From: Clostridia bacterium
GTDB lineage: Bacteria > Bacillota > Clostridia > Oscillospirales > Acutalibacteraceae
Direction: 5' to 3'
DNA length: 64,000 nt
NCBI GenBank assembly: GCA_017507805.1
Contig: JAFWAC010000015.1
Span: forward strand, 124,001 to 188,000
Part shown: piece after piece, positions 2,421 to 34,338 of the stretch
Layout: every line of letters begins with the position of its first letter
Position numbering within the stretch: position 1 is the stretch's first letter
Program-made: the position numbers and the translations under genes
Notes under the pieces: model-generated
Database searches by the model: none
Told to the model about the DNA's origin: nothing
Seen by the model: only the letters and a program-made list of their open reading frames with translations

Positions 2421-2537
2421 TTTTGGCATAAAATGGGGACAGATGTTACCGTAGCTGTTGACTGTACTGCATTTTTCTAATTGACAATAGCCGTCCTTTT
2501 GAAAACGGCAGCTTTCCGAGCATTGAATCAATCCCAT
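2367..2537 (-). CDS. Small Cys-rich protein, putative zinc-binding
   Basis: A 56-residue protein starting MGLIQCSESC. The Cys pattern is C-x3-C-x7-C-x5-C followed by CPHF, with the segment FQKDGYC. This matches a family of short Cys-rich proteins common in Clostridia that databases often mislabel as hydroxymyristoyl-ACP dehydratase. Its function is unknown and metal binding is inferred from the cysteines. The start at 2537 has a GTGAGG site upstream. The 3' end overlaps the last 54 bases of convergent radA, which is unusual but tolerable for a convergent pair. An upstream in-frame start at 2570 would add 11 residues without Cys. It could be a chance frame, but the Cys spacing and KDGYC core argue against that. 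Confidence 0.55.
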   Translation of the reverse strand: MGLIQCSESCRFQKDGYCQLEKCSTVNSYGNICPHFMPKLFDYRNCLTETSYPNEF

Positions 2538-2631
2538 AAATTTTCGCCTCACAAAAGGGTATAAAATCAAATATATTATTAGTTTGTATTTTTAAAATAT
2601 ACAGATAAGACACAAACGGAGGAGTTTTAAA

Positions 2632-2892
2632 ATGGATCTTAAAGGCATATTGCGACCGGTAGACAGAATGGGCAGAATAGTTATTCCGAAGGAAATCAGG
2701 GCGGCGCTTAATATCGAGGAAACAAAGGACAGACTTGAAATTTTTCTTGACGGTGATGTGATTGTTCTGAAAAAGCATATGCCCACCTGTGTTTTTTGCG
2801 ATAATCTTGATGTTGGTGTTGTTTATAACGGATATAATGTTTGCAAAAACTGTATTGACAGACTTAATGAAATAAAGGACACGGCGGAATAA
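2632..2892 (+). CDS. AbrB/SpoVT-family transcriptional regulator with C-terminal zinc ribbon
   Basis: An 86-residue protein. Residues 1-50 form a swapped-hairpin AbrB domain (ILRPVDRMGRIVIPKEIR, then LEIFLDGDVIVLKK), the DNA-binding fold of AbrB, Abh and SpoVT transition-state and sporulation regulators. Residues 53-76 carry two CxxC pairs (CVFC and CKNC), a small zinc ribbon appended to the AbrB domain. AbrB-type proteins act as dimers or tetramers on AT-rich promoters. A GGAGG site precedes the ATG. The gene stands alone between radA and a convergent ABC transporter. The target genes cannot be read from the sequence. Confidence 0.88.
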   Translation: MDLKGILRPVDRMGRIVIPKEIRAALNIEETKDRLEIFLDGDVIVLKKHMPTCVFCDNLDVGVVYNGYNVCKNCIDRLNEIKDTAE

Positions 2893-2914
2893 GCCGTATC
2901 CCTTATTTTCACAA

Positions 2915-4594
2915 TTATTCTTTTATAACCGAAAACACCTTGTTTTCCACATGAACTATGCGGTTGCAGGCTTTAAGGCTTGTGTTACGGTGGGTTACGA
3001 ATAAGACGGTTTTATCACTCATAGCGGTTATGTTGTTAAGCACATTTGTTTCGGTTTCCTCGTCCAAAGCGGAGGTTGCTTCATCAAGTAATAAGACGGG
3101 GGCATTTGTAAGCAGCGCACGGGCGATTGAAATTCGCTGTATTTGTCCCTCCGAAAGACCGGCGCCTCTTTCTGAAAGCGGCGAGTCAAAGCCTTCGGGC
3201 AGGGATTCGATCAAGTCATAAATTTCGGCAGCCTTGGTTGCATTTATAAGCTTTTCCTCAGGAATATTATCATTACAAAGGGTGAGATTTTCGCGTATGG
3301 TACCCGAAAGCACTAAATTTCCTTGCGGTACATAAGCAAACAAGCCTCTCAGCGATGTGTCAAGCTTTATGTTGCCGTTGACCGTGATTTCACCACTCTG
3401 CGGCTCATAAAGACCTAATAAAAGCTTAAAAATTGTGCTTTTGCCGCTACCTGATTCACCTGTAAGAGCAGTTATTTTGCCTTTAGGTATATCAAAGCTA
3501 CAGTTTTTAAGTATGATTTCATCCTTGTAGGCAAAGGTTATATTTTTAACCTCTATTCCTGTGAAATCATTTTTAATTAATTCGAGCTTGTTCTTTTCAA
3601 GTGGAGGGAGATCCTCTTCACCCGATGCAACATCAATTATGCGTTCCGCAGAAGCTAAAGCTGAGTAATATTGCGGTACTATTCCTGAAAAATTTTGCAA
3701 AGGTGTCCTTAATTGCTGTACAAGCTGCAAGAATGCCATAAGTGTACCGTAGGTTATTGCGCCAGTAGAAATCCGACCGGCACCCCAAACAAGAACAGCA
3801 TAGTAACCCAAGGTAAAAAACGAATAAAGACTGAGGGATGTTATTGTCCAAATAGTGTTACGCTTCATTCTGAGTTTGAAGTTCTCATTCATAAACTGAT
3901 TAAGCTTCTTAATAAATGGTGTTTCACTTTCAAAAATTTTAACGATAACGATATTTTCAAAGCATTCCTGAGCAAATGAACGGGTTTTACCCTCTGTTTG
4001 CTGAAAAGCTTTGTGCAGAAGTTTGAATTTACGGTTTAATATTCTGCCGAAGGCAGGAACTACTAAGCCTGTCGCTAAAATTATAATCGCTATCTTTGGA
4101 TTGAGCACAATCAAAGTAGTAATACCGCCTACTATCTTGGAGAGCATTGAACAAAAATTCGGTATTATATTAATTACACTGGATGCAACTACATCGGTAT
4201 CCGAGGTGAAACGGTTTAATAAATCACCAGAATGGTAGACAGTAGCTTCTGAGTATTTTTTGCGGCTTAAAAATCCGAAAAGATAGGTGCGCAAAGTAAT
4301 GGTAAGTTTGCCCAGGGTATAGGTTTTCAATACCGAGTCAGCACCCTGCAATATTATTTGAAGCAACACCACACCTACAATGAGACAGGCATAAAGCATT
4401 AAGTCGCTTTGCATGCTGCCGGTGGCAATATCCAGAACATCCTTAGAAAGCAATGCTAACCAAATATAACTTAATGAGGATATTACGGATAAAACCGAAA
4501 TTAGTATTACCATTGGAAAATACTTTTTTGTTCTCCCGTAAATCCATTTAAGGGTTTTTGAATTGCTTTCTTTTCTTTTATTCGATGATTCCAT
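2915..4594 (-). CDS. ABC transporter, fused permease and ATP-binding protein (exporter type)
   Basis: A 559-residue half-transporter: about six membrane helices in residues 25-310 (ABC exporter type I), then an ATPase with Walker A TGESGSGKST, signature LSEGQIQRISIARAL, Walker B VLLLDEATSALDEE and H-loop VTHR. It would act as a homodimer exporting a lipid, drug or peptide. It starts inside the 3' end of a pqqD-like gene (17-bp overlap), so the two are translationally coupled. No peptidase C39 domain is present, so it does not itself process a leader peptide. PqqD-like proteins bind leader peptides of modified peptides, which hints at a peptide substrate, but no precursor or modifying enzyme is nearby. 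Confidence 0.9.
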   Translation of the reverse strand: MESSNKRKESNSKTLKWIYGRTKKYFPMVILISVLSVISSLSYIWLALLSKDVLDIATGSMQSDLMLYACLIVGVVLLQIILQGADSVLKTYTLGKLTITLRTYLFGFLSRKKYSEATVYHSGDLLNRFTSDTDVVASSVINIIPNFCSMLSKIVGGITTLIVLNPKIAIIILATGLVVPAFGRILNRKFKLLHKAFQQTEGKTRSFAQECFENIVIVKIFESETPFIKKLNQFMNENFKLRMKRNTIWTITSLSLYSFFTLGYYAVLVWGAGRISTGAITYGTLMAFLQLVQQLRTPLQNFSGIVPQYYSALASAERIIDVASGEEDLPPLEKNKLELIKNDFTGIEVKNITFAYKDEIILKNCSFDIPKGKITALTGESGSGKSTIFKLLLGLYEPQSGEITVNGNIKLDTSLRGLFAYVPQGNLVLSGTIRENLTLCNDNIPEEKLINATKAAEIYDLIESLPEGFDSPLSERGAGLSEGQIQRISIARALLTNAPVLLLDEATSALDEETETNVLNNITAMSDKTVLFVTHRNTSLKACNRIVHVENKVFSVIKE

Positions 4595-4844
4595 TTTCTT
4601 TCATGGTGCGTACAAAAACATCAATGTCACCAAGAGCCAAAACGGTAGAAATATCAAAATTTTCTATCAGCTCATTAAGCATCTGGGTTTTTGTAACATC
4701 CTTCTCCTTTAATAAATTCCACAGAAAAACCGCTGTATCGGTAAGAACAATATAGTTGTCAGGCGAAGAAACAGCCTTTTTCTTTGACACAACAACAAAC
4801 TGACCTGAACGGTTAATCAGTTCAAATCCTTCTTTAATTTTCAA
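4578..4844 (-). CDS. PqqD-family peptide chaperone / RiPP recognition element
   Basis: An 88-residue protein with the compact PqqD fold: the segments VVVSKKKAVSSP, IVLTDTAVFLWNLLKE and DIDVFVRTMKENGIIE match the strand and three-helix pattern of PqqD and lasso-peptide B1 proteins. These bind leader peptides and present them to modifying enzymes. I prefer the TTG start at 4844 (MKIKEGFEL), which has a GAGGTG site at proper spacing. A GTG three codons upstream falls inside that site. It is the first gene of a two-gene unit with the ABC exporter. No radical SAM enzyme, cyclase or short precursor gene was found next to it, so it is an orphan pair. Confidence 0.8.
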   Translation of the reverse strand: MKIKEGFELINRSGQFVVVSKKKAVSSPDNYIVLTDTAVFLWNLLKEKDVTKTQMLNELIENFDISTVLALGDIDVFVRTMKENGIIE

Positions 4845-4879
4845 GCTTGACACCTCGTTTGTTAATAAAAGGTAAATTT

Positions 4880-4932
4880 ATTATACAACAAAATAAAAGG
4901 TATTGCAAGTATAATAGGTTTTGTTGTATAAT
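4880..4932. promoter_or_regulatory. Mirror-symmetric divergent promoter
   Basis: A perfect 14-bp inverted repeat, ATTATACAACAAAA (4880-4893) and TTTTGTTGTATAAT (4919-4932), surrounds the palindrome TTGCAA (4903-4908). Rightward, TTGCAA is a -35 with TATAAT at 4927-4932 (18-bp spacer), leading to the gene at 4974. Leftward, the same TTGCAA is a -35 with TATAAT (complement of 4880-4885, 17-bp spacer), leading to the pqqD-ABC unit. Both -35 elements are the same six bases, so the two promoters should be mutually exclusive. Confidence 0.75.
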
Positions 4933-4973
4933 GTTATTTATAAATAATATTATCTTTTTTGAGGAGATATGAC

Positions 4974-5486
4974 ATGGATACTTTTTTTGAACAAATTGTT
5001 TCGGTAAGAAAATCAGGAAAGGCAATAGCTGCAATCACAGGCATTTGGCTTTTAGCACTGCTTTTATCTGTGCTGTTGTTTTTATTTCCGTTTTTAGGCA
5101 GCCTTAATATTCTGCTGATTTGCGGAATACTTTTCGGCGCGTTTAAGCTTTGCGGCAAATTTAATCTGGAGTATGAGTATATTATTACCAACGGTACGAT
5201 GGATATTGACAGAATTATAAATAAAAGCTCAAGAAAGCGTGAGCTTTCCTTAGAGCTTTCCACAGTGTCGCGAATCGAGAAATTTAATGCAGGTCTGCTT
5301 AATTCCATAAACCGACAAAGCCTTACGGTTGCTTGCGATGAAAATGCTGCCGATGCATACCTTTTGGTTGCAGAGCGCGAGGGTAAGGGCAGCGCTTATT
5401 TGGTTTTTGAACCTGACGAGCGCTTGAAGGGAGCCATTGTTAAATTTGTTCCTAAATTTGTTGCAAACAGTGCATTTAAAAGCTAA
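4974..5486 (+). CDS. Membrane protein of unknown function (DUF6106-like)
   Basis: A 170-residue protein with a short cytoplasmic start (MDTFFEQIVSVRKSGK), two closely spaced hydrophobic helices at about residues 20-60, and a soluble C-terminal half with a strand-rich segment (YEYIITNGTMDIDRIINK). It resembles small clostridial membrane proteins grouped as DUF6106, but I give the family name with caution. The ATG at 4974 has a GAGGAGA site, and the divergent promoter ends about 40 bp upstream. The next gene, nnr, follows after 15 bp, so the two are probably co-transcribed. No function can be stated. Confidence 0.8.
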   Translation: MDTFFEQIVSVRKSGKAIAAITGIWLLALLLSVLLFLFPFLGSLNILLICGILFGAFKLCGKFNLEYEYIITNGTMDIDRIINKSSRKRELSLELSTVSRIEKFNAGLLNSINRQSLTVACDENAADAYLLVAEREGKGSAYLVFEPDERLKGAIVKFVPKFVANSAFKS

Positions 5487-5501
5487 AAGGGGAGTGCCGC
5501 T

Positions 5502-6950
5502 ATGAAGGTGTTGACTACTGCTTTAATAAGAAGCGCAGAGGAAAACGCTGTTAAAAGCGGTGCTTTTTCTTTCACAAGGCTTATGGAAGTTGCCGGAAAA
5601 ACTGCCGCAGAGAAAATTTGTGAAAAATTTGATTTCACAGGAAAGAGAGTTGCCGTGCTTTGCGGCAACGGTAATAACGGCGGTGACGGATTTGTTATAG
5701 CCCGTTATTTATATGAACACGGTGCCGATGTTACGGTGATTTGCCCGCTTGGGAAACCGAAAACGGCAGATGCAGAGTATTATTACGAAAAACTGCCGTC
5801 TGTGAAAATAACAGATACATTTACCGATGATTACAGTATTATAATAGACGCACTTTTCGGAATAGGCTTTAACCGTCAGCCAACCCCTGAAATATTACAG
5901 CTTTTTGAAGCGGTTAATAAAGCCGGAGGGGTAAAGATAGCAATAGATATACCGTCCGGCTCGGCGGCAGATACGGGAGAGGTTTTTGGAACGGCTGTAA
6001 GGGCAGATTTTACCGTAACCTTTATAGCCTTAAAGCCGGGGCTTTTATTGCCGCCATGTTCGGACTATGCAGGTGAAATATGTGTTGCGGATATAGGTGT
6101 TCCCATAAAAGAATATAGCTTTTCTGTGACCGAAAAGCCTGTGTTTGAAAAAAGACGGCGTAATTCCCATAAAGGCACATTTGGTACTGCTTTGCTCATT
6201 TGCGGAAGCTACGGTATGGCAGGCGCGGCAATGCTTGCGGCAAGGGCAGCGCTGAGAAGCGGTGTGGGAATTGTGAAGTCTGTTTTGTGTGAGGGGATTT
6301 ATTCTGCCTTTACCGCTGCTGTTCCCGAAGCGGTCTGCTTGCCGAAAAAGCAATCGGAAAAGGGTACTCTTTGTGCCGGAGATATAGATATAAAACAGTT
6401 GATATCGGGTTGCGATGCGGTGCTTTTCGGTTGCGGTATCGGGCAGAGTGACGATACCCGAAAAATACTTGAAATGCTGATAACCCAAAACGAAAAAAAC
6501 ATAGTTATTGATGCGGATGGTATAAATCTGCTGAGTGAAAACATAGAATTACTAAGGAAAAGTAAAGCATCTGTAATTCTCACGCCCCATCCGGGTGAAA
6601 TGGCAAGACTTTGCGGCGCTGCCGTGGCAGAGGTGGAGGCTAACCGCATTGAAATTGCACGCGATTTTGCTATAAGGTATGCTTGTGTTTTAGTGCTCAA
6701 GGGTGCTAATACAATTATAGCAGAGCCTGACGGTGGGATAACCTTTAATTTGACCGGAAATCCCGGTATGGCAACGGGCGGCAGCGGTGATGTTCTTGCC
6801 GGAATAATCGTTGCGCTTCTGGCTCAGGGTATGAAGCCCGAGGAGGCGGCAAAGGCGGCGGTTTATCTGCATGGCGAAGCAGGGGATAGGGCGGCAGAGC
6901 GCAAGGGAGAGCGAGCAATGCTCCCCTCTGATATTATAGATGAGCTTTGA
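5502..6950 (+). CDS. nnr: Bifunctional NAD(P)H-hydrate epimerase / ADP-dependent dehydratase
   Basis: Repairs damaged NADH and NADPH hydrates: the N-terminal half epimerises the R form and the C-terminal half dehydrates the S form using ADP or ATP. The 482 residues show both domains: YjeF_N (about 1-205) with the loop GNGNNGGDGFVIARYL, and the ribokinase-like YjeF_C (about 220-480) with TPHPGEMARL and NPGMATGGSGDVLAGI. Length matches the fused enzyme. The ATG at 5502 has a GGGGAG site. The neighbour upstream is 15 bp away and a lipoprotein gene follows after 28 bp, suggesting one operon. Confidence 0.96.
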   Translation: MKVLTTALIRSAEENAVKSGAFSFTRLMEVAGKTAAEKICEKFDFTGKRVAVLCGNGNNGGDGFVIARYLYEHGADVTVICPLGKPKTADAEYYYEKLPSVKITDTFTDDYSIIIDALFGIGFNRQPTPEILQLFEAVNKAGGVKIAIDIPSGSAADTGEVFGTAVRADFTVTFIALKPGLLLPPCSDYAGEICVADIGVPIKEYSFSVTEKPVFEKRRRNSHKGTFGTALLICGSYGMAGAAMLAARAALRSGVGIVKSVLCEGIYSAFTAAVPEAVCLPKKQSEKGTLCAGDIDIKQLISGCDAVLFGCGIGQSDDTRKILEMLITQNEKNIVIDADGINLLSENIELLRKSKASVILTPHPGEMARLCGAAVAEVEANRIEIARDFAIRYACVLVLKGANTIIAEPDGGITFNLTGNPGMATGGSGDVLAGIIVALLAQGMKPEEAAKAAVYLHGEAGDRAAERKGERAMLPSDIIDEL

Positions 6951-7484: not shown

Positions 7485-7513
7485 TTGACAAATAAAATTT
7501 ACGGTGGTATAAT
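7485..7513 (+). promoter_or_regulatory. Sigma-A promoter of the Ile T-box unit
   Basis: Perfect consensus: TTGACA at 7485-7490, 17-bp spacer, TATAAT at 7508-7513. Transcription should start near 7520, just before the T-box leader. Confidence 0.9.
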
Positions 7514-7528
7514 ACAGAAAAAATTAAA

Positions 7529-7797
7529 AAGGCTTTGACGAAGACGGTCTAAGTTTCGTGCTTAAAGAGAGTCGGTGTTTGGTGCGAACCGATAGCATTG
7601 TTCTTAATTTGACCCATCCCTTCCGAGCCGGAGCGTTGAACTGCCCAAGTGGGTTTAAGTAGGTGTTCCCGTGATTGCTGCGTAAAGGCATAGGAATTGT
7701 TGGATTCCAAGAGAGGCAGTTTTTAAACTGCAATTTGAGTGGTACCGCGGATGTATTTTAACATTCGTCTCAAAGTGTTGAGACGAATGTTTTTTTT
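7529..7797 (+). promoter_or_regulatory. T-box riboswitch, isoleucine-type (specifier AUC)
   Basis: The leader carries the Stem I landmarks AGAGAG and GGTGCGAA, the specifier region ending in CCTTCCGAGCC, and the T-box sequence TGGTACCGCG (7740-7749). The UGGU bulge pairs with an ACCA tRNA end, so discriminator base A. A terminator follows: stem ACATTCGTCTCA (7761-7772) with TGAGACGAATGT (7779-7790) and eight T. Aligning the conserved 11 bases after the specifier with the other two T-boxes in this window puts the specifier codon at 7616-7618, ATC (Ile). Uncharged tRNA-Ile should therefore allow readthrough into the fusion gene at 7828. Confidence 0.9.
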
Positions 7798-7827
7798 ATT
7801 TTTATTTACTGAAAGGGAGTAATAACA

Positions 7828-10095
7828 ATGACAACCAACACAGCCAAGGAACAGTTAATGGAGATTGGATTGCGAATTAAGGAAATGCGCGAAATTATGG
7901 GCTGGTCTGTTGCAGAGATGGCAGAGAAAACCGAGGTTAGCGAGGAGCAGTACATAACATTTGAAAACGCAAATGCAGATATTCCCTTTAGTTTTATTCA
8001 CAAATGCGCTTTAGCCTTTGATGTTGAGCTTACCGAGCTTTTAGAGGGCCATTCCGCAAGACTTTCAAGCTATACCGTAACCCGCAAGGGTAAGGGACAG
8101 AAAACCGCTAAAGAAGACGGTATCGATATTGCAAACTTGGCGCCTAAATTCAGGGATAAAATAGCCGAGCCTTATTATGTAAGATATGAGTATTCAGCTT
8201 CTCAGCAGAATAAGCCGATACATCTTACAACCCACTCAGGACAGGAGTTTGACCTTGTGCTAAGCGGCTCGCTTAAGGTGCAAATCGGTGAACACACCGA
8301 GATTTTGCGCGAGGGTGACAGTATTTATTATAACAGCTCCACACCCCATGGTATGATTGCCATTGACGGTGAGGATTGCGTTTTCTGCGCAGTTGTTTTG
8401 CCGGGCGAGGATACTAAAGAGGATGTTGTGAGAAAGAGTATCGCTTCAGCTAAAAATTCCGAAAAGCTTGTTTGCGAGAAGTTTGTTAAAACATTCGAGG
8501 ATAAGGACGGTAGGTTGGAGAAAATCAACTTTAAGAATACCGATGTGTTCAATTTCGGCTTTGATATTGTTGACGGTATAGCTGAAAAATATCCCGAAAA
8601 GCTTGCAATGCTTCATATTGATAAAAATAAAAATGAGCGCCGATTTAGCTTTAAGGATATCAAGCGTGCATCTAATCAAACCGCAAATTACTTCACCTCT
8701 TTGGGAATTAAGAGGGGAGATAAGGTAATGCTTGTCCTTAAAAGGCATTATCAGTTCTGGTTCTGTATGGTGGCATTGCATAAAATCGGTGCTGTTGCAA
8801 TTCCGGCAACAAATCAGCTTAAGGAGCACGATTTTGAGTACAGATATAAAGCCGCAGGTGTGAGCGCGCTTGTCTGCACAGCCGATGGGGATACCGCTGA
8901 GATAGCCGAAAGAGCAGCTAAATCCTGTGAGGGAGTAAAGCAGCTTGTAATGGTGGGCGGCAACCGCGAGGGTTGGCACGATTTTGACAGTGAATATAAG
9001 CTTTTCTCCGGAAAGTATGACAGAGAGGAAAATGCCTCTGCGGGTGATGATACCGCCCTTATGTTCTTTACATCGGGTACAACAGGCAACCCCAAAATGG
9101 CTGCACATAAGCATACCTATGCTTTAGGGCATTTTGTAACAGCTAAATATTGGCATTGCTGTGAAAGGGACGGTCTCCACTTGACTATTTCCGACACCGG
9201 CTGGGGTAAGTCACTTTGGGGCAAGCTTTACGGTCAGTGGCTTTGCGAGGGCGCGGTCTTTGTTTACGACTTTGACCGTTTTGAAGCGGATGAAATTCTG
9301 CCTATGTTTGCAGAGTATAACATAACCACCTTCTGCGCGCCTCCAACCATGCTCAGAATGTTGGTTAAAAGCGACCTTTCCAAGTATGATTTATCATCTA
9401 TTCATCATATGACCACGGCAGGCGAAGCTTTAAATCCGGAGGTTTTCCGCCAATTCGAGGAAGCAACAGGTCTGCAGATAATGGAAGGCTTCGGTCAGAC
9501 CGAAACCACCCTTACAATTGCAAATCTCTGGGGCACTGTGCCTAAGATCGGCGCAATGGGTAAGGCTTCACCTCAGTATGATGTTGATATTGTTGACCCT
9601 GACGGTAATCCCGTTGCAGACGGTGAGGTTGGCGAAATCATCATAAGAACAAACAAGGAAACCCCGTGCGGATTGTTTAAGGAATATTATCTTGATGATG
9701 AAAAAACCAACGAGGCTTGGTATGACGATATGTATCACACAGGAGACACCGCTTGGCGCGATGAAGACGGATATTTCTGGTATGTAAGCCGTATTGATGA
9801 TGTAATTAAATCGTCCGGCTACCGTATAGGACCTTTTGAGATTGAAAGCGTTATAATGGAGCTGCCCTATGTTTTGGAATGCGGTGTTTCTGCGGCTCCC
9901 GATGAGGTGCGCGGTCAGGTTGTAAAGGCAAGTATTGTTCTTGTAAAGGGAACAGAGCCAACCGAGGAATTGAAAAAGGAAATTCAAAATTATGTCAAGG
10001 AGCATACTGCACCGTATAAATATCCTCGTATAGTTGAGTTTAGAGACGAGCTTCCTAAGACCATAAGCGGAAAAATTCAAAGAAATAAGCTTTAA
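7828..10095 (+). CDS. XRE-cupin-acyl-CoA synthetase fusion protein (copy 1, Ile T-box)
   Basis: A 755-residue three-part protein. Residues about 12-66 are an XRE-type helix-turn-helix, about 125-190 a cupin (QEFDLVLSG, then GDSIYYNSSTPHGM), and 230-755 an AMP-forming acyl-CoA synthetase of the medium-chain/acetyl-CoA synthetase type. Synthetase motifs are FTSGTTGNPK, GEALNPEVF, EGFGQTET, YHTGDTAW, SSGYRIGPFE and the catalytic-lysine motif SGKIQR at the end. It should activate a short carboxylic acid to its CoA ester. The Ile T-box upstream and the oxidoreductase genes downstream suggest 2-methylbutyrate as the substrate; this is inference. The HTH and cupin may sense the acid or act on DNA. 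A GGGAG site precedes the ATG. A paralogue lies directly downstream. Confidence 0.9.
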   Translation: MTTNTAKEQLMEIGLRIKEMREIMGWSVAEMAEKTEVSEEQYITFENANADIPFSFIHKCALAFDVELTELLEGHSARLSSYTVTRKGKGQKTAKEDGIDIANLAPKFRDKIAEPYYVRYEYSASQQNKPIHLTTHSGQEFDLVLSGSLKVQIGEHTEILREGDSIYYNSSTPHGMIAIDGEDCVFCAVVLPGEDTKEDVVRKSIASAKNSEKLVCEKFVKTFEDKDGRLEKINFKNTDVFNFGFDIVDGIAEKYPEKLAMLHIDKNKNERRFSFKDIKRASNQTANYFTSLGIKRGDKVMLVLKRHYQFWFCMVALHKIGAVAIPATNQLKEHDFEYRYKAAGVSALVCTADGDTAEIAERAAKSCEGVKQLVMVGGNREGWHDFDSEYKLFSGKYDREENASAGDDTALMFFTSGTTGNPKMAAHKHTYALGHFVTAKYWHCCERDGLHLTISDTGWGKSLWGKLYGQWLCEGAVFVYDFDRFEADEILPMFAEYNITTFCAPPTMLRMLVKSDLSKYDLSSIHHMTTAGEALNPEVFRQFEEATGLQIMEGFGQTETTLTIANLWGTVPKIGAMGKASPQYDVDIVDPDGNPVADGEVGEIIIRTNKETPCGLFKEYYLDDEKTNEAWYDDMYHTGDTAWRDEDGYFWYVSRIDDVIKSSGYRIGPFEIESVIMELPYVLECGVSAAPDEVRGQVVKASIVLVKGTEPTEELKKEIQNYVKEHTAPYKYPRIVEFRDELPKTISGKIQRNKL

Positions 10096-10100
10096 TATAG

Positions 10101-10129
10101 TTGACAAATCCTAAATGTTGTGATAAAAT
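10101..10129 (+). promoter_or_regulatory. Sigma-A promoter of the Val T-box unit
   Basis: TTGACA (10101-10106), 17-bp spacer, TAAAAT (10124-10129). It starts six bases after the stop codon of the first fusion gene, with no terminator between, so readthrough from the first unit also enters this leader. Confidence 0.85.
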
Positions 10130-10140
10130 ATACCTTGTTA

Positions 10141-10412
10141 AAGGCGTTGACGATGAGGGCACAGAGAAAAAGTGTTGTCAGAGAGGTAACGGTTGGTGTG
10201 AGTTATCGGTGCTTGCTTTGTGTTTGTAGCTTCTGAGCCGGAAGGAAGAAAACCGATTGGTGAGTAGAACCTTTCCGTGATTGCTGCGTAAAGGCATAGG
10301 AATTGTTGGATTCCAAGAGGGGCGGTTTTAAACTGCAATTTGAGTGGTACCGCGGGTATTGAAGAAATTCATTGCTCGTCTCAAAGTCATAGCTTTGGGA
10401 CGAGCGTTTTTT
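10141..10412 (+). promoter_or_regulatory. T-box riboswitch, valine-type (specifier GUA)
   Basis: Stem I landmarks AGAGAG and GGTGTGA are present, with T-box sequence TGGTACCGCG at 10345-10354 (discriminator A). A terminator follows: GCTCGTCTCAAAG (10374-10386) with CTTTGGGACGAGC (10393-10405) and TTTTTT. The codon just before the conserved block GCTTCTGAGCC is GTA (10226-10228), a Val codon. The 3' half from CGTGATTGCTGCG to the T-box is nearly identical to that of the Ile T-box upstream, so the two arose by tandem duplication with a changed specifier. The Val call depends on alignment of the specifier region. Confidence 0.85.
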
Positions 10413-10434
10413 CGTCCCGAGAATGGAGGATACT

Positions 10435-12732
10435 ATGCAACAAATTACAGGACTTGATTTTAAAATTAAAGAAATGGCGGGGCGTATAAAGGAGCTTCGC
10501 GAAATAGAGGGACTTTCTCCCGAGCAAATGGCGGCTAAGACTGCGGTTTCAGTCGAGGAATACCTTTCCTGTGAAAACGGCGAAAGCGACTTAAACTTTG
10601 CTTTTATTTATCGCTGTGCCTTGGCTTTTAATGTCGATGTTACCGATATTATCGAGGGTTACAGCCCCAAGCTTAAATCCTACACCGTAACCCGCAGGGG
10701 TGAAGGTCAGCGCATCGAAAAAGCTCACGGTATGACCTATTATAATTTGGCCTATGCCTTTAAGAACCGTATTGCAGAGCCACTTTATGTTGAAAGCGTA
10801 TACAGCGAGGAAGCACAGCATAAGGATATTGAGCTTACAACCCACGCAGGTCAGGAATGTGACCTTGTAATCACAGGTCATCTTAAGGTTCAGGTGGGCG
10901 AGCATAAGGTTGTTTTGGGCCCGGGCGACAGTATTTATTACGATAGCTCAACACCTCACGGAATGATAGCTGTGGAGGGTGAAAACTGTACCTTTTATGC
11001 AATGGTTTTAAATCCTACAGGTGAACCAATCCCCGAGCTGTCACAGCTTCAGACAGAGCCTGCTAAAACAACTGCTAAAATCCGCAAAAAGGACGATGCA
11101 GAGCGCGTTTACCGAAAATACATAGATGTTGAGGAAAACGAAAACGGAACTCCCGTTTCGATTAACTTCAAAAATACCGATAAATTCAATTTCGGCTTTG
11201 ATGTAATTGATGCTATTGCAGATAAATCACCCGATAAAACGGCAATGCTCCATATTTCTCGTGACGGTGAGGAGCGCCGCTTCAGCTTCAAGGATATTAA
11301 AAAAGCTACAAATCAGTGCGCTAACTATTTTAAATCCTTAGGGATTAAAAAGGGCGACCGCGTAATGCTGGTGTTAAAACGCCACTATCAGTTCTGGTTT
11401 TCAATCATTGCGCTTAATAAATTAGGCGCTATTGCAATCCCTGCCACAAATCAGCTTGTGGAGCATGATTTTGATTATCGCTTTAAATCTGCAGGCGTAA
11501 CCGCTATTATCTGCACTGCGGACGGTGATACCGCAAATCAGGTTGATATTGCCGCTAAGAACAACCCACAGCTTAAAACCAAGCTTATCGTAAACGGCAG
11601 TAAAGAGGGCTGGAGAAGCTTTGACGAGGAGTACACCCTTTACAGCACCCATTTCAACCGTACTGAGGATACTGCCTGCGGTGATGACTTGATGCTTATG
11701 TATTTCACATCCGGAACATCGGGATACCCGAAAATTGCGGCACATAATTATAAATATCCGTTAGGTCATTTCCACACAGCGAAATATTGGCACAATGTTG
11801 ACCCTGACGGCTTGCATTTCACCATATCCGATACCGGTTGGGCAAAGGCAACATGGGGCAAGATTTACGGTCAGTGGCTTTGCGAGGCAGGAATATTCGT
11901 TTACGATTTTGACCGCTTCGATGCGGCGGAAATTCTGCCGATGTTTGCTAAGCATAATATAACCACCTTCTGCGCACCTCCCACAATGCTCAGAATGCTT
12001 ATAAAGCAGGATATTGCTAAGTACGATTTTTCATCGGTCAAGCATATGACTACTGCAGGCGAAGCATTAAATCCTGAGGTTTACCGCCAATTTGAAAAGA
12101 TTACAGGCTTGCAGATACTTGAGGGCTTCGGTCAGACCGAAAGCACAATGATAATCGGTAATATGACAGGTGCTCCACACAAAATCGGTTCAATGGGTAA
12201 ACCGGCGCCTATATACGATGTAAGGCTGGTTGGCCCGGACGGTAATCCTGTACCTGTTGGTGAAACGGGTGAGATAGTTATCAATATCGAAAATGGCTTA
12301 CCCTGCGGTCTTGCTACCTGTTATTACGGTGACGAGGAAAAGACAAAGGATACCTGGAAAGACGGATACTATCATACCGGCGACACCGCTTGGATGGATG
12401 AGGACGGATTTTTCTGGTATGTTGGCAGAGTTGACGATGTAATTAAATCCTCAGGCTACCGCATAGGCCCGTTTGAGATTGAAAGTGTTATAATGGAGCT
12501 GCCCTATGTTTTGGAATGCGGTGTTTCTGCGGCTCCTGATGAGGTTCGCGGTCAGGTCGTAAAGGCAAGTATTGTTCTTGTAAAGGGAACAGAGCCAACA
12601 GAGGAATTAAAGAAAGAAATTCAAACCTATGTTAAGGAAAAAACTGCGCCTTATAAGTATCCGCGTATAGTTGTATTTAAGGAAAGCCTTCCCAAAACCG
12701 TAAGCGGAAAAATACAGCGCAATAAGCTTTAA
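10435..12732 (+). CDS. XRE-cupin-acyl-CoA synthetase fusion protein (copy 2, Val T-box)
   Basis: A 765-residue paralogue of the previous fusion with the same order: XRE helix-turn-helix (about 15-70), cupin (about 130-195, with QECDLVITG and GDSIYYDSSTPHGM) and AMP-forming acyl-CoA synthetase (about 240-765, with FTSGTSGYPK, EGFGQTES, YHTGDTAW and SGKIQR). I chose the ATG at 10435, which has GGAGGA five bases upstream; an ATG at 10423 lies upstream of that site. It is the first gene of the operon that carries the 2-oxoacid oxidoreductase and aminotransferase, so isobutyrate to isobutyryl-CoA is the most likely reaction given the Val T-box. The substrate is inferred. The C-terminal segment is almost identical in DNA to copy 1, a sign of gene conversion. 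Confidence 0.9.
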   Translation: MQQITGLDFKIKEMAGRIKELREIEGLSPEQMAAKTAVSVEEYLSCENGESDLNFAFIYRCALAFNVDVTDIIEGYSPKLKSYTVTRRGEGQRIEKAHGMTYYNLAYAFKNRIAEPLYVESVYSEEAQHKDIELTTHAGQECDLVITGHLKVQVGEHKVVLGPGDSIYYDSSTPHGMIAVEGENCTFYAMVLNPTGEPIPELSQLQTEPAKTTAKIRKKDDAERVYRKYIDVEENENGTPVSINFKNTDKFNFGFDVIDAIADKSPDKTAMLHISRDGEERRFSFKDIKKATNQCANYFKSLGIKKGDRVMLVLKRHYQFWFSIIALNKLGAIAIPATNQLVEHDFDYRFKSAGVTAIICTADGDTANQVDIAAKNNPQLKTKLIVNGSKEGWRSFDEEYTLYSTHFNRTEDTACGDDLMLMYFTSGTSGYPKIAAHNYKYPLGHFHTAKYWHNVDPDGLHFTISDTGWAKATWGKIYGQWLCEAGIFVYDFDRFDAAEILPMFAKHNITTFCAPPTMLRMLIKQDIAKYDFSSVKHMTTAGEALNPEVYRQFEKITGLQILEGFGQTESTMIIGNMTGAPHKIGSMGKPAPIYDVRLVGPDGNPVPVGETGEIVINIENGLPCGLATCYYGDEEKTKDTWKDGYYHTGDTAWMDEDGFFWYVGRVDDVIKSSGYRIGPFEIESVIMELPYVLECGVSAAPDEVRGQVVKASIVLVKGTEPTEELKKEIQTYVKEKTAPYKYPRIVVFKESLPKTVSGKIQRNKL

Positions 12733-12736
12733 GATT

Positions 12737-13399
12737 ATGGAATATAAAAGATTAACATTGCTTTGCGGTCACTACGGAAGCGGAAAAACAAATGTTGCTG
12801 TTAATATGGCTTATGATTTGAAAAAGCGCTTTGACAGAGTGACGGTTGCCGATTTGGACATTGTAAACCCATATTTCAGGACGAAGGACAGTGCAGAGGA
12901 TTTTAAGGCTCAGGGGATAGAGCTTATCTGCTCAGAATACGCAGGTACCAATGTGGATATTCCTGCAATGCCTCAGCAAATGTATTCACTCACGGATGAC
13001 CGTTCTGTAAGGGGAATACTCGATATCGGCGGTGATGACCGCGGCGCTCTGGCGCTTGGCAGATTGGCTCCTGCGGTTATTGAGGAAAACGATTATGAGA
13101 TGCTTCTTGTAATTAATTGCTTCAGACCTCTCACACCCGATGCTTCGTCCACCGTGGAAATAATGCGCGAGATTGAGCTTGCCGGTAAAATACCCTTTAC
13201 AGGTATAGTAAATAATTCAAACCTGGGCGAGGAAACCACCGCCGAGGATGTGCTTAATTCCTTGGGTTATGCCCGGGAGGTTTCCGAAATTACGAGGCTT
13301 CCGATAAAGTGTACCGCTGTGCGTGAAGAAATTTATAATGAGCTTGAGGGTAAGATACCAAATCTTTTCCCACTAAAGCTTCAAGGAAAAATAAAATAA
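12737..13399 (+). CDS. P-loop ATPase of unknown role in the oxidoreductase operon
   Basis: A 220-residue protein with an N-terminal Walker A GHYGSGKTN and a ParA/MinD-like second motif (VADLDIVNPYF), followed by DIGGDDRGALALG where a Walker B-like strand lies and VINCFRP and GIVNNSNLG further on. This is the SIMIBI NTPase fold used by iron-sulfur carriers, Ni-insertion GTPases and ParA proteins. It lies four bases after the synthetase and 21 bp before the ferredoxin, so it is an operon member. A role in assembling or activating the oxidoreductase is possible but not shown. No Cys pair typical of Mrp/NBP35 carriers is present. Confidence 0.8.
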   Translation: MEYKRLTLLCGHYGSGKTNVAVNMAYDLKKRFDRVTVADLDIVNPYFRTKDSAEDFKAQGIELICSEYAGTNVDIPAMPQQMYSLTDDRSVRGILDIGGDDRGALALGRLAPAVIEENDYEMLLVINCFRPLTPDASSTVEIMREIELAGKIPFTGIVNNSNLGEETTAEDVLNSLGYAREVSEITRLPIKCTAVREEIYNELEGKIPNLFPLKLQGKIK

Positions 13400-13420
13400 T
13401 TTTAGATAAGGAGTGCTAAT

Positions 13421-13627
13421 ATGGCAAAGCTTACCTTCAAAACAGATAAGTGCAAGGGTTGCGGACTTTGTGTTGATGTATGCCCTAAAAAGGTACTTGT
13501 TCTCGCTAAGGAAAAAATCAATAAAAAAGGACATCACCCCGTAGAGGCTGTAAATGAGGCTGATTGTATCGGCTGTGCTTTCTGCGCTACAATGTGTCCC
13601 GATTGTATAATCAAGGTAGAAAGGTGA
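13421..13627 (+). CDS. 2-oxoacid:ferredoxin oxidoreductase, ferredoxin (delta) subunit
   Basis: A 68-residue 2[4Fe-4S] ferredoxin with two clusters: CKGCGLCVDVCP and CIGCAFCATMCP. It wires electrons between the TPP enzyme and free ferredoxin. It sits directly upstream of the alpha subunit (six bases), in the delta-alpha-beta-gamma order of 2-oxoisovalerate and 2-oxoglutarate ferredoxin oxidoreductases. A GGAGTG site precedes the ATG. Confidence 0.93.
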   Translation: MAKLTFKTDKCKGCGLCVDVCPKKVLVLAKEKINKKGHHPVEAVNEADCIGCAFCATMCPDCIIKVER

Positions 13628-13633
13628 TAAAAA

Positions 13634-14698
13634 ATGGCTGATAAAGTTTTAATGAAGGGTAATGAAGCTATTGCCGAGGCCGCAATAATTGCAGGCTGTA
13701 AGCATTATTTTGGCTATCCCATTACCCCACAAACCGAAATTGCCGCGTATATGGCAAAAAGAATGCCCAAAATCGGCGGTGTGTTTTTACAGGCTGAAAG
13801 CGAAATTGCCGCAATCAATATGGTTTACGGTGTAGCTGCCACAGGTCACAGAGTTATGACCTCCTCCTCAAGCCCCGGAATTTCCTTGAAGGGTGAGGGA
13901 CTTTCATATTTGGCAGGCGCTGATTTGCCGTCACTTATAGTAAATGTTCAGCGCGGCGGCCCCGGTCTTGGCGGTATTCAGCCCTCACAGTCGGATTATT
14001 TTCAGGCAACAAAGGGCGGAGCTCACGGTGATTTCCATATGATAGTTTTGGCTCCTGCTTCTGTTCAGGAAATGGCAGACCTCACCGTTAAGGGCTTTGA
14101 GCTTGCCGATAAATACCGTATGACCTCTATGATTTTAGCAGACGGTACAATGGGACAAATGATGGAGCCTGTTGCACTTGACTATGAAATTGCTCCTGCT
14201 CCCGAAAAGCCTTGGGCTACTGTTGGTACTAAAATGGCAAGAGAGCATAATATTGTTAATTCTCTTTTCTTAGCCCCCGAGGAGCTTGAAAGGGTAAACT
14301 TTGAAAGATACGAAAGATATGCGGCTATAAAGGAAAACGAAACCATGTATGAGGAATACATGATGGAGGATGCCGATATTTGCGTTGCGGCTTTCGGTAT
14401 AGCTGCCCGTGTTGCTAAAAATGCAATCAACGAGGCAAGAAAGCAGGGTATAAAGGTTGGACTTATCCGTCCTATCACACTTTGGCCTTTCCCCGAAGCT
14501 CCCTTTAAAAAGGCTGCTGATAAAGTTAAGGCGGTGGTTTCGGTTGAGCTTTCCATGGGCCAGATGATTGAGGATATCCGCCTTGCAACCGAATGTAAGG
14601 TTCCGGTTTCCCTTTGCAACCGCGCCGGCGGTATGATTCCTTCACCCGAACAGGTGCTGGAGGCTATTAAAGCGGCAAATAACGGAGGTGCGAAATAA
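13634..14698 (+). CDS. vorB: 2-oxoacid:ferredoxin oxidoreductase alpha subunit (VorB-like)
   Basis: A 354-residue protein with the pyruvate:ferredoxin oxidoreductase domain I start (GNEAIAEAAIIAGCKHYFGYPITPQTE), the segment SSSSPGISLKGEGLSYLAG and a C-terminal domain II (IRPITLWPFPE). Length and motifs match the VorB/KorA type, which acts on 2-oxoisovalerate or 2-oxoglutarate. Placement next to ilvE and under a Val T-box favours branched-chain 2-oxoacids. The enzyme is reversible; with reduced ferredoxin it carboxylates acyl-CoA. Its stop codon overlaps the beta-subunit start by one base. Confidence 0.92.
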   Translation: MADKVLMKGNEAIAEAAIIAGCKHYFGYPITPQTEIAAYMAKRMPKIGGVFLQAESEIAAINMVYGVAATGHRVMTSSSSPGISLKGEGLSYLAGADLPSLIVNVQRGGPGLGGIQPSQSDYFQATKGGAHGDFHMIVLAPASVQEMADLTVKGFELADKYRMTSMILADGTMGQMMEPVALDYEIAPAPEKPWATVGTKMAREHNIVNSLFLAPEELERVNFERYERYAAIKENETMYEEYMMEDADICVAAFGIAARVAKNAINEARKQGIKVGLIRPITLWPFPEAPFKKAADKVKAVVSVELSMGQMIEDIRLATECKVPVSLCNRAGGMIPSPEQVLEAIKAANNGGAK

Positions 14699-15453
14699 TG
14701 GTAGTTTTTGATAAACCTAATGCTTTGGCAGATGCTTCAATGCATTATTGCCCCGGCTGTACACACGGTATTGTTCACCGCCTTGTTGCCGAGGTTATGG
14801 ATGAGCTTGGTATTGAGGGCAGAACCATAGGTATTGCTCCTGTTGGTTGCTCGGTTATGGCATATAATTACTTTAATTGTGATATGATTGAGGCGGCACA
14901 CGGCAGAGCCCCGGCAGTTGCTACCGGCGTTAAGCGCGCTGAGCCAGACTCTATTGTATTTACATATCAGGGTGACGGTGACTTGGCATCTATCGGTATG
15001 GCAGAAACTGTACACTCAGCCGCAAGAAACGAAAATATAACTATAATATTCATTAATAACGCTATCTACGGTATGACAGGCGGTCAGATGGCTCCTACCA
15101 CATTGCCCGGTCAGGTAACTCAAACCTCTCCCTACGGCAGAGATGTTAATCATTGCGGCTTCCCCATAAAGGTTTGCGAAATGCTTTCTGAGTTGGACGG
15201 TCCCGAATATCTCGAAAGGGTTGCCGTTAATAATGTAAAGAATGTTAAAAATGCTAAAAAGGCAATCAAAAAGGCTTTCCAAAATCAGGTAGACGGAAAG
15301 GGATTTTCTTTGGTAGAGGTAATTTCAAGCTGTCCTACCAACTGGGGTATGACACCTAAAAAAGCCCTTGAGTGGATAGACGAAAAAATGATTCCTTACT
15401 ATCCTTTAGGCGTTTACAAGGATAGAACGGCTGCAAAGGAGGAGACAAAATGA
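14698..15453 (+). CDS. vorA: 2-oxoacid:ferredoxin oxidoreductase beta subunit, TPP-binding (VorA-like)
   Basis: A 251-residue thiamine-pyrophosphate subunit. It shows CPGCTHG near the N-terminus, the TPP motif GDGDLASIG followed by INNAIYGMTGGQMAPT, and the region SCPTNWGMTP. It forms the active site with the alpha subunit. The start codon ATG shares its A with the alpha stop codon, and the gamma gene overlaps its end by four bases, so the subunits are translationally coupled in stoichiometric order. The substrate cannot be told from the motifs alone; the operon context points to branched-chain 2-oxoacids. Confidence 0.92.
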   Translation: MVVFDKPNALADASMHYCPGCTHGIVHRLVAEVMDELGIEGRTIGIAPVGCSVMAYNYFNCDMIEAAHGRAPAVATGVKRAEPDSIVFTYQGDGDLASIGMAETVHSAARNENITIIFINNAIYGMTGGQMAPTTLPGQVTQTSPYGRDVNHCGFPIKVCEMLSELDGPEYLERVAVNNVKNVKNAKKAIKKAFQNQVDGKGFSLVEVISSCPTNWGMTPKKALEWIDEKMIPYYPLGVYKDRTAAKEETK

Positions 15454-15983
15454 GTACAACACAGTTTTTGTTTGCCGGCTTCGGCGGTCAGGGAATACTC
15501 TTTTCGGGTAAGTTTTTAGCATATAAGGGGCTGATGGAGGATAAGAATGTAAGCTGGCTTCCGTCCTACGGTCCCGAAATGCGCGGCGGTACGGCAAGCT
15601 GCTCGGTAATTATAAGCGATACCCCCGTTGGCTCTCCGATAGTTTCTAACCCCGATGTGTTGGTTGCAATGAATTTGCCCTCACTCGATAAGTATGAGGA
15701 CAGTGTTGTTCCCGGAGGAACAATATTTATAGATTCAACCCTTATTGAACGCAAGGTAAAGCGTGACGATGTTACCGTTCACTATATTCCGGCGACCGGT
15801 CTTGCTAATGAAAACGGTATGCCCACCCTTGCTAATATGATAATTGCAGGTAAAATTCTGGCTGCAATGGGTGAGTTTGACGAGGACGGCATAAATGCCG
15901 CTTTGGGTAAGGTAATTTCTGCAAGACATGCAGATAAGCTTGGTTTAAATCTTAAGGCTCTTAACCTTGGTAAGGAGAATTAA
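15450..15983 (+). CDS. vorC: 2-oxoacid:ferredoxin oxidoreductase gamma subunit (VorC-like)
   Basis: A 177-residue catalytic-domain subunit of the PFOR gamma family, beginning [19 protein letters not shown] and including [13 protein letters not shown], both hallmarks of the family. It completes the four-subunit oxidoreductase with the ferredoxin, alpha and beta subunits just upstream. It overlaps the beta gene by four bases (ATGA), and the aminotransferase starts one base after its stop codon. Confidence 0.93.
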
Positions 15984-15984
15984 A

Positions 15985-17049
15985 ATGGAAATTAAAATCA
16001 CTAAAGCTTCCACACTTAAGGAAAAGCCCGATAGCTCTGCGCTGGGCTTCGGTAAAATTTTTACCGACCATATGTTTATGATGGATTGGAATGATGAAAA
16101 GGGCTGGTCAAATGCCCGTATAGTTCCTTTTGAAAACATTTCCTTGCATCCGGCTTCAACCGTTTTGCATTACGGCTCTGAGATATTCGAGGGCTTAAAG
16201 GCCTACCGCCGCAAGGACGGAAAGGTACAGCTTTTCAGACCTATTGAAAATATCCGCCGTATGAACCGTTCTGCTGAAAGACTTTGCTTGCCCCAAATTC
16301 CTGAGGAGGATGCTTTGCAAATTCTTAAGACCTTTGTAGGGGTTGAACAGGATTGGACTCCTTCGGCGGAGGGTACCTCCCTGTATCTGCGTCCATTTAT
16401 GTTCGGTAATGACGAGTCTTTGGGTGTTCATGCAGTACATAATGCTACCTATGTTATAATTGCTTCACCTGTCGGAAGCTACTATAAAGAGGGTATTAAC
16501 CCCGTTAAAATTATGATTGAGGATGAGGATGTCCGCGCCGTAAGAGGCGGTACAGGCTACGCAAAATGCGGCGGTAACTATGCCGCAAGTAACCGTGCGG
16601 GTCAGCGTGCGGAGCAAAAGGGCTATTCTCAGGTTTTGTGGCTTGACGGTGTAGAGCGCAAGTATATTGAGGAAGTCGGCGCTATGAATGTAATGTTCAA
16701 GATTGGCGATGAAATCGTAACTCCGATGCTTTCAGGCTCTATTCTCCCCGGTATTACCAGAATGTCCTGTTTAGAGGTTCTTAAAAAACAGGGCTACAAG
16801 GTAAGCGAACGCTTGCTCAGTATTGATGAGCTTGGTGAAGCACTTGAAAACGGCACCCTTGAGGAAGCTTGGGGCTGTGGTACTGCGGCAGTAGTGTCAC
16901 CAATAGGCGAGCTTTGCTATAAGGATGTTAAGTACACCATTAACAACGGTGAAATCGGTAAGGTTACCCAATATCTTTACGATACCTTAACAGGTATTCA
17001 GTGGGGTAAAATTGAGGATAGCTTTGGCTGGACTTTGTCGATTGAATAA
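15985..17049 (+). CDS. ilvE: Branched-chain amino acid aminotransferase
   Basis: A 354-residue PLP enzyme of the long bacterial/eukaryotic-type BCAT group. It exchanges the amino group between glutamate and the 2-oxoacids of Val, Ile and Leu. The PLP lysine is in AKCGGNY (about Lys194), followed by SQVLWLDGVERKYIEEVGAMN and GSILPGITR, with GTAAVVSPIGEL near the end. I chose the ATG at 15985 with an AAGGAG site at 15972; an upstream GTG gives six extra residues inside that site. As last gene of the Val T-box operon it completes the path from acyl-CoA to amino acid. A strong terminator follows. Confidence 0.95.
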   Translation: MEIKITKASTLKEKPDSSALGFGKIFTDHMFMMDWNDEKGWSNARIVPFENISLHPASTVLHYGSEIFEGLKAYRRKDGKVQLFRPIENIRRMNRSAERLCLPQIPEEDALQILKTFVGVEQDWTPSAEGTSLYLRPFMFGNDESLGVHAVHNATYVIIASPVGSYYKEGINPVKIMIEDEDVRAVRGGTGYAKCGGNYAASNRAGQRAEQKGYSQVLWLDGVERKYIEEVGAMNVMFKIGDEIVTPMLSGSILPGITRMSCLEVLKKQGYKVSERLLSIDELGEALENGTLEEAWGCGTAAVVSPIGELCYKDVKYTINNGEIGKVTQYLYDTLTGIQWGKIEDSFGWTLSIE

Positions 17050-17061
17050 TTGAATTCTTTA

Positions 17062-17098
17062 TAAAAAAACCCTCACACGGCTGTGTGAGGGTTTTTTT
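17062..17098. terminator. Bidirectional terminator after ilvE
   Basis: Stem CCCTCACAC (17070-17078) with GTGTGAGGG (17083-17091), a T run at 17092-17098 and an A run at 17063-17069. It ends the ilvE operon and can also end the convergent gene at 17116. Confidence 0.92.
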
Positions 17099-34072: not shown

Positions 34073-34092
34073 GGAATAAATTATAGATTATT

Positions 34093-34338
34093 AAAGGCAA
34101 TGACGAAGAAAAGTAGTATCACCTCCGATGCTCAGAGAGTTGCGTAACGGTGCAAGCGCAATCACCGCGTGATATGAAGAACACTTTCGAGCCGCAATCT
34201 GAAAGCCGTGTCAGGCAAGTAGGTGCGCCGTACTGATGCGTTAAATCAACCTTGAGTGACCGTTTATTAACGGTAAATTAGGTGGCACCGCGAATAAGCG
34301 TCTATTCGTCCTGATATGGGAATAATAGGCGCTTTTTT
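34093..34338 (+). promoter_or_regulatory. T-box riboswitch, asparagine-type (specifier AAC)
   Basis: Stem I has AGAGAG and GGTGCAA; the specifier codon AAC (Asn) lies at 34180-34182 before ACTTTCGAGCC. The T-box TGGCACCGCG (34283-34292) has UGGC, which pairs with GCCA, so discriminator G as in tRNA-Asn. The terminator is AGCGTCTATT (34297-34306) with AATAGGCGCT (34324-34333) and TTTTTT. Specifier, discriminator and downstream genes all agree, which validates the alignment used for the other two T-boxes. Confidence 0.95.

Follow-up and report, generated by a model that had tools for sequence, protein, structure and literature searches.

The closest described chemistry comes from the rumen, for which passages of PMC7356843 name 2-methylbutyrate as a precursor of isoleucine and isobutyrate as a precursor of valine; the reference list of that paper holds three titles from 1966 to 1971 on such a synthesis of valine, isoleucine and leucine. 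In this chemistry, rumen bacteria reductively carboxylate isobutyrate, 2-methylbutyrate and isovalerate to yield valine, isoleucine and leucine, respectively. Here we describe two adjacent, T-box-controlled gene units that appear to encode the same chemistry in a like habitat. They lie in a stretch of 64,000 nucleotides (the window) from a Clostridia bacterium of the Acutalibacteraceae (GenBank assembly GCA_017507805.1, contig JAFWAC010000015.1, positions 124,001 to 188,000 of the forward strand). Together with a third unit on another contig, they add to the rumen tracer work the genes, their T-box control, the disappearance of de novo synthesis and a leucine branch. In our reading, to which we give a probability of about 0.82, salvage of isoacids by reductive carboxylation replaces the de novo synthesis of branched-chain amino acids.

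Several parts of this system have known counterparts. The T-box ilv and leu operons of Firmicutes use the same RNA mechanism and respond to the same amino acids, but they control ilvBCD, whereas the T-boxes described here control a salvage route. The nearest named family of the ligase domain of both synthetases is MbcS of Staphylococcus aureus, described in passages of PMC10026030 as an enzyme that uses 2-methylbutyrate and isobutyrate, does poorly with isovalerate, and supplies branched acyl-CoA primers for fatty acids; it differs from the present proteins in feeding fatty acid synthesis and in lacking their HTH-cupin part. The nearest solved structure, 3etc, is the archaeal Macs of Methanosarcina acetivorans, which according to passages of PMC10455477 prefers 2-methylbutyrate; here too the match excludes the HTH-cupin part, and the tryptophan of the branched-acyl pocket described for Macs appears, by our own placing, to be kept within TAKYW in both synthetases. 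The third unit, finally, encodes a homologue of 2-isopropylmalate synthase, LeuA, with the same HMGL barrel and LeuA_dimer domain; unlike true LeuA, it has lost the catalytic motifs, precedes a synthetase gene and occurs in a genome in which no true LeuC was found. The chemistry was thus already known from the rumen work of 1966 to 1971, whereas the genes, their control and the replacement were not found in print: no description of the regulon (these genes under T-boxes, and the replacement) was found in openly licensed PMC papers, a scope outside which the earlier T-box survey of Vitreschak 2008 falls, and the main texts of Wels 2008 (PMC2494555) and Sun 2013 (PMC3766115) do not mention the enzymes of the pathway.

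T-box leaders and gene content of the isoleucine and valine units

Each unit, on the plus strand, has its own promoter-like site, read by eye, and its own T-box leader. The site of the first unit (TTGACA, 17 bases, TATAAT; 7485-7513) is followed by a leader at 7526-7775 that scored 103.3 bits against the T-box model RF00230, over the gathering threshold of 93. That of the second unit (TTGACA, 17 bases, TAAAAT; 10101-10129) begins 6 bases past the stop codon of the first synthetase gene and is followed by a leader at 10138-10386 with 79.0 bits, under the gathering threshold; its E-value was 3e-16 when scanned locally and 1.7e-17 when the whole genome was searched. Both leaders matched the full length of the model and contained the specifier, the UGGN antiterminator bulge and the competing terminator. 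In the first, the specifier AUC (Ile) is at 7616-7618, UGGUACCGCG at 7740-7749 and the terminator hairpin at about 7760-7791; in the second, the specifier GUA (Val) is at 10226-10228, UGGUACCGCG at 10345-10354 and the hairpin at about 10373-10406. The hairpin and U-run that end the leaders gave folding z values of −5.8 (Ile) and −7.4 (Val).

Specifiers were read as the codon 9 bases 5' of the GAG of stem I. A search of the host genome (2.34 Mb, 36 contigs, estimated completeness 87.6%) with RF00230 returned eight T-boxes, six of them over gathering, and the rule gave AAC, UUC, ACC and UGG for those before asnS, pheS, thrS and a trpB homologue (names read by eye from the translations). As these control specifiers match their downstream genes, the rule works in this genome. 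The Asn T-box (AAC, UGGC bulge), at 34091-34316 of the window upstream of asnS, served as a positive control. The last base of the UGGN bulge was U before both synthetase genes and the leuA homologue, C before asnS and A before thrS, which presumably fits the discriminator bases of the tRNAs.

The isoleucine unit consists of the gene for synthetase 1 (p1; 7828-10095), an HTH-cupin-acyl-CoA synthetase fusion predicted to use 2-methylbutyrate. The valine unit opens with a second such fusion, synthetase 2 (p2; 10423-12732), with isobutyrate as its predicted substrate. Pfam matches in both were HTH, Cupin_2, AMP-binding and AMP-binding_C; the HTH of p2 fell just under the cut-off of HTH_19 (27.7 versus 30.2) and just over that of HTH_3 (23.5 versus 23). 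A by-eye look at the promoter regions revealed no operator for the HTH domain. Behind p2 follow a P-loop ATPase of the CbiA/ParA type (12737-13399; best family match CbiA, 27.5 bits), a 2x[4Fe-4S] ferredoxin (13421-13627) that is probably the delta subunit of a 2-oxoacid:ferredoxin oxidoreductase (VOR), the alpha (VorB, 13634-14698), beta (thiamine pyrophosphate binding, 14698-15453) and gamma (15450-15983) subunits of this enzyme, and a branched-chain aminotransferase (BCAT, IlvE type II; 15985-17049), with which the operon ends at 17049. The alpha subunit (NF005507, 542.6 bits, cut-off 399) and BCAT (NF009897, 487.3 bits, cut-off 307; TIGR01123, 401.1 bits, cut-off 250.05) scored above the NCBIfam cut-offs, and the beta and gamma subunits and the ferredoxin matched below NCBIfam but above Pfam cut-offs. 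A sequence-only reading of this DNA had named the two leaders with their Ile and Val specifiers, the synthetase fusion behind each and the ferredoxin, VOR and BCAT genes of the second operon, and the model and family matches bear it out; its gene list had passed over the ATPase, which is retained between p2 and the ferredoxin in most copies.

Conservation among relatives

The analysis covered 80 related genomes, 49 of them in the same genus (the host genome included), and, for gene presence, 394 genomes of the order. In the genus relatives whose loci were retrieved, p1, p2, ATPase, ferredoxin, VOR and BCAT follow one another in this order on contigs of sufficient length, apart from a few cases such as G001, whose p1 is located elsewhere; among a wider set of loci, BCAT sometimes follows p2 directly. 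The synthetase-VOR-BCAT order under Ile and Val T-boxes, for which the sequence-only reading had suggested a search in other Clostridia, thus recurs within the genus and beyond. Single-copy genes of order-level genomes (L065-L076) have no adjoining VOR; five of them (L065-L069) are the single fusion gene of their genome and stand in most cases behind an Ile T-box. The 80 best-matching collection loci listed, all from metagenome bins, are labeled mostly Clostridia, Oscillospiraceae or Ruminococcaceae and come, where titles give a body site, from cecum, colon, rectum, rumen and feces.

Specifiers were tallied with identical leaders counted once and genes below 60% identity (p1, p2) or 40% identity (leuA) excluded. 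Where the leader offered a single candidate codon, it was ATC before p1 in 44/44 cases, a Val codon before p2 in 60/62 (57 GTA, 3 GTC) and a Leu codon before leuA in 24/25. A further 72 leaders, in which candidates were multiple or absent, and an odd leuA leader were read by eye from the N-CTTCY-GAG context, a choice that could favor the expectation; with these included the counts are ATC in 74 of 75 for p1 (one truncated), Val in 91 of 93 for p2 (86 GTA, 5 GTC) and Leu in all 35 for leuA (32 CTC, 3 CTG). The two p2 leaders without a Val codon are an unreadable one (L133) and that of the single-copy order-level gene L065, which reads ATC. The changes from GTA to GTC and from CTC to CTG are synonymous. 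A chance origin of the T-boxes was ruled out by the conserved terminators, order, specifiers and neighbors.

Exchange with the de novo pathway

Searches of the host genome for ilvB, ilvC, ilvD and true LeuC gave none over cut-off (at 87.6% completeness, the search covering these four genes), in line with the absence of ilvBCD that the sequence-only reading had proposed as a check. A 30-bit match to ilvC over 75 positions was rejected as a real ilvC, and a LeuC-like match of 356 bits (cut-off 410) in a frame of 651 residues was read as aconitase.

Within the genus all four genes were over cut-off in the same 7 of 49 genomes (G008, G009, G020, G023, G024, G025 and G030), and none was in the other 42. 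The HTH-cupin fusion, scored as a p2 search match that reaches the HTH-cupin part, was found in one of the seven (G008) versus 41 of the 42 (Fisher p 3e-6, with no correction for kinship); the lone genome of the 42 without it, G016, is 79% complete. In two of the de novo genomes, a T-box with CTC as first candidate codon lies upstream of ilvB, at about 0.1 kb (G030) and about 1.8 kb (G025).

At order level, an HTH-cupin match was present in 210 of the 394 genomes, 64 of them with ilvC, and missing from 184, of which 140 have ilvC. For the p2 class, defined by E-values of 1e-76 or better with a threshold chosen after the values had been seen, 52/57 genomes had no ilvC, against 138/337 of the rest. 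The weaker HTH-cupin classes showed a much smaller tendency, with ilvC in 50/122 and 9/31. Eight genera (g1, g19, g20, g42, g44, g90, g123 and g158) are mixed, with members that have p2 but no ilvC alongside members that have ilvC but no p2.

Predicted substrates of the two synthetases

The nearest NCBIfam family of p1 and p2 was MbcS (NF047394), with 446 and 424.2 bits over residues 253-755 and 267-769, respectively, the HTH-cupin part lying outside the match. Since these scores are under the curated cut-off of 850 bits, p1 and p2 are not members of MbcS. Structure 3etc matched with 624 (p1) and 608 (p2) bits, the next structure with 340 and 361. Aromatic acids were ruled out as substrates, the nearest enzymes being Macs and MbcS and no Phe or Trp specifier having been read before the synthetase genes; the branched-chain substrates proposed in the sequence-only reading agree with those that the nearest enzymes use. 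Among named carriers, a plasmid search gave no VOR context: Parabacteroides distasonis (L188:8992-11214) encodes the cupin part and the ligase separately, in neighboring genes next to proB/proline genes and without VOR, as if the fusion had been split, and a Prevotella record is unannotated.

Comparison of 80 p1 and 89 p2 proteins gave 16 positions that are fixed differently (at least 90% per class), of which the HTH-cupin part holds 11 and the ligase domain 5. The residue after the DTGW motif is Gly in 80/80 p1 proteins, as in Macs, and Ala in 88/89 p2 proteins; the sole p2-labeled protein without Ala is that of L065, which carries the Ile specifier ATC. In acetyl-CoA synthetase the counterpart of this residue lines the acyl pocket. 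Single-copy proteins of the order-level genomes also had Gly at this position in all nine looked at (L065-L073), and the specifier was readable as ATC for L065, L066, L068 and L069; apart from L072, the others gave no reading. As the Gly/Ala residue tracks both the synthetase class and the specifier, a smaller pocket for isobutyrate in p2 and a larger one for 2-methylbutyrate in p1 is a reasonable guess.

A possible but rather doubtful alternative accepts the pathway and assigns both acids to both synthetases, the T-boxes then setting only total dosage. The paucity of distinguishing positions in the ligase domain (5/16, with 11 in the HTH-cupin part) and the acceptance of both acids by MbcS, as given in passages of PMC10026030, speak for it. 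On the other hand, two positions by the DTGW motif track the specifier, and one genome points the same way: G062, which keeps ilvC, ilvD and, where a contig ends, a partial ilvB and is without p2 and true LeuC, retains p1 with its Ile T-box, VOR, BCAT and the whole leucine unit, a gene content that fits a division of the acids between p1 and p2.

The leucine unit and its LeuA homologue

The sequence-only reading, which considered Ile and Val, had missed a third branch. A Leu T-box of the host genome heads a unit at L081:1619-6321 on contig C25, which encodes the LeuA homologue (1619-3004), a third synthetase in the form of a TIM-barrel and AMP-ligase fusion (3009-5510) and an amidohydrolase (Amidohydro_2; 5515-6321). 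The barrel of the fusion seems, by eye, to retain a metal site. Another Leu specifier (CUC) was seen in the T-box of L006, before an Lrp-like regulator and an aminotransferase (L082:4655-6309, minus strand; names by eye).

Against leuA_bact the homologue reached 225.1 bits, under the curated cut-off of 598.7. None of 46 distinct homologues, the host's included, has any of the metal and substrate motifs LRDGxQ (in full DTTLRDGxQ), HxHND and GxGERxGN (two of the 46 are cut, so that the first motif is missing from the sequence); all five true LeuA proteins (L175-L179) have each of them, whereas both regulatory-domain motifs were present in 46/46 homologues. HxHND and GxGERxGN are also retained in two HMGL proteins from de novo genomes that are more distantly related (L180, L183). 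Mean identity among 44 distinct homologues was 69% in the regulatory domain and 45% in the barrel; true LeuA, a small control of five sequences, showed the reverse, 50% and 66%. No true LeuC that could partner the homologue was found in the host genome.

By bit score, the homologue occurs in 45 of the 80 genomes searched, the host included, and is nearly full length in 43. It often adjoins the p1/p2 operon in relatives and was within the fetched stretch around p1/p2 at 42 of 118 loci, some genomes being counted twice. Within the genus it is present in 1/7 de novo genomes (G008) and 38/42 others (p 1e-4), the four exceptions being G005, G016, G035 and G043.

From the loss of the catalytic motifs beside a kept leucine domain we infer that the homologue acts as a leucine-binding regulator of the adjoining third synthetase. 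That it is instead a working enzyme with changed chemistry is unlikely. It is kept nearly intact in many genomes, and a single His of HxHND is left in a few copies (L064, L171/L187), as one might expect of an enzyme; the complete loss of the catalytic motifs beside fully kept regulatory motifs, and a regulatory domain better conserved than the barrel, the opposite of true LeuA, argue for the regulator. The third synthetase probably acts on isovalerate, an assignment drawn from genomic context, as the nearest NCBIfam family covers fatty acid CoA ligases in general and matched below its cut-off.

Proposed pathway and its alternatives

There is good support for a salvage route in which 2-methylbutyrate and isobutyrate are reductively carboxylated, and hence for the corresponding proposal of the sequence-only reading on isoleucine and valine, which is incomplete in lacking the Leu T-box, the third synthetase and the catalytically dead LeuA. 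In the pathway as we propose it, 2-methylbutyrate (by p1) and isobutyrate (by p2) from the gut would be activated to the acyl-CoA at the expense of ATP. VOR, running in the reductive direction, would then convert acyl-CoA, CO2 and reduced ferredoxin to 3-methyl-2-oxopentanoate or 2-oxoisovalerate, from which BCAT would form isoleucine or valine. Uncharged tRNA-Ile would release transcription of p1, uncharged tRNA-Val that of p2 with the shared VOR and BCAT, and uncharged tRNA-Leu that of the third unit with the dead LeuA and the third synthetase, probably for isovalerate. Activation by a dedicated synthetase would thus be the step set for each amino acid, VOR and BCAT being shared. Our inference of the reaction direction draws on the control by starvation, the use of ATP by the synthetases and the lack of de novo genes.

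A plausible but tentative extension is that a large group of animal-gut Clostridia has given up the complete branched-chain amino acid pathway for isoacid salvage in three tRNA-sensed modules, each with a T-box, its own synthetase and a protein sensor. Every branch would then be monitored at two levels, through the charging of its tRNA and through a protein that binds a ligand. Candidate sensors would be the fused HTH-cupin domains for isoleucine and valine and the dead LeuA for leucine.

Several observations weigh against the salvage reading. VOR and BCAT stand only under the Val T-box, so that a shortage of isoleucine alone would raise only p1, which is a weak point. Both pathways occur together in G008 within the genus and in 5 of the 57 order-level p2 genomes (G137, G240, G302, G376 and G428), and p2 is not the sole answer to the loss of ilvC, since 138 of 337 genomes without p2 also have none. 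Both synthetases miss the MbcS cut-off, and the specifier of L072, an order-level locus below 60% identity and hence outside the tallies, reads CTA by the rule and not an Ile codon. A T-box core was not found before 7/91 p1, 3/105 p2 and 9/48 leuA genes. Many of the genomes, moreover, are incomplete metagenome bins, the host genome itself being 87.6% complete, and as they are related to one another, the Fisher values overstate the evidence.

It is improbable that the synthetases instead provide the synthesis of membrane fatty acids with branched acyl-CoA primers, the amino acids simply being imported. Such a role is the one described for MbcS, the nearest named family, in passages of PMC10026030 on Staphylococcus. 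Lipid supply, however, needs neither tRNA sensing nor BCAT, and the unit shared with VOR and BCAT, the separate Ile and Val specifiers and the exchange with the de novo pathway fit a supply of amino acids. Likewise improbable is a Stickland-type or fermentative route in the oxidative direction, in which VOR would turn branched-chain amino acids into acyl-CoA and, finally, free acids. Both VOR and BCAT can run either way, and VORs act in peptide fermentation, but induction by uncharged tRNA-Ile, -Val and -Leu makes little sense for genes that degrade the corresponding amino acids (T-box genes are on when charged tRNA is scarce, an argument that the sequence-only reading had also made), AMP-forming synthetases consume ATP and would run the wrong way, and the operon stands in for ilvBCD in the genus.

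Elsewhere in the window (2915-4853, minus strand), a gene for a PqqD-like small protein is followed by an ABC transporter, a layout known from peptide-modification clusters.

Implications

Salvage of isoacids, as read here, ties an old piece of rumen chemistry to a gene set, its control and a group of uncultured bacteria; isoacid feeding is still under study, for instance in yaks. At the level of the proteins, the Gly/Ala residue after DTGW would predict the preferred acid of each synthetase, and the LeuA homologue, kept for its leucine domain, would if confirmed clearly exemplify the conversion of an enzyme into a sensor. At the level of the community, the operon would predict which uncultured gut bacteria need isoacids from their neighbors; it may thus serve as a marker for cross-feeding on products of gut protein fermentation and as a hint for cultivation.

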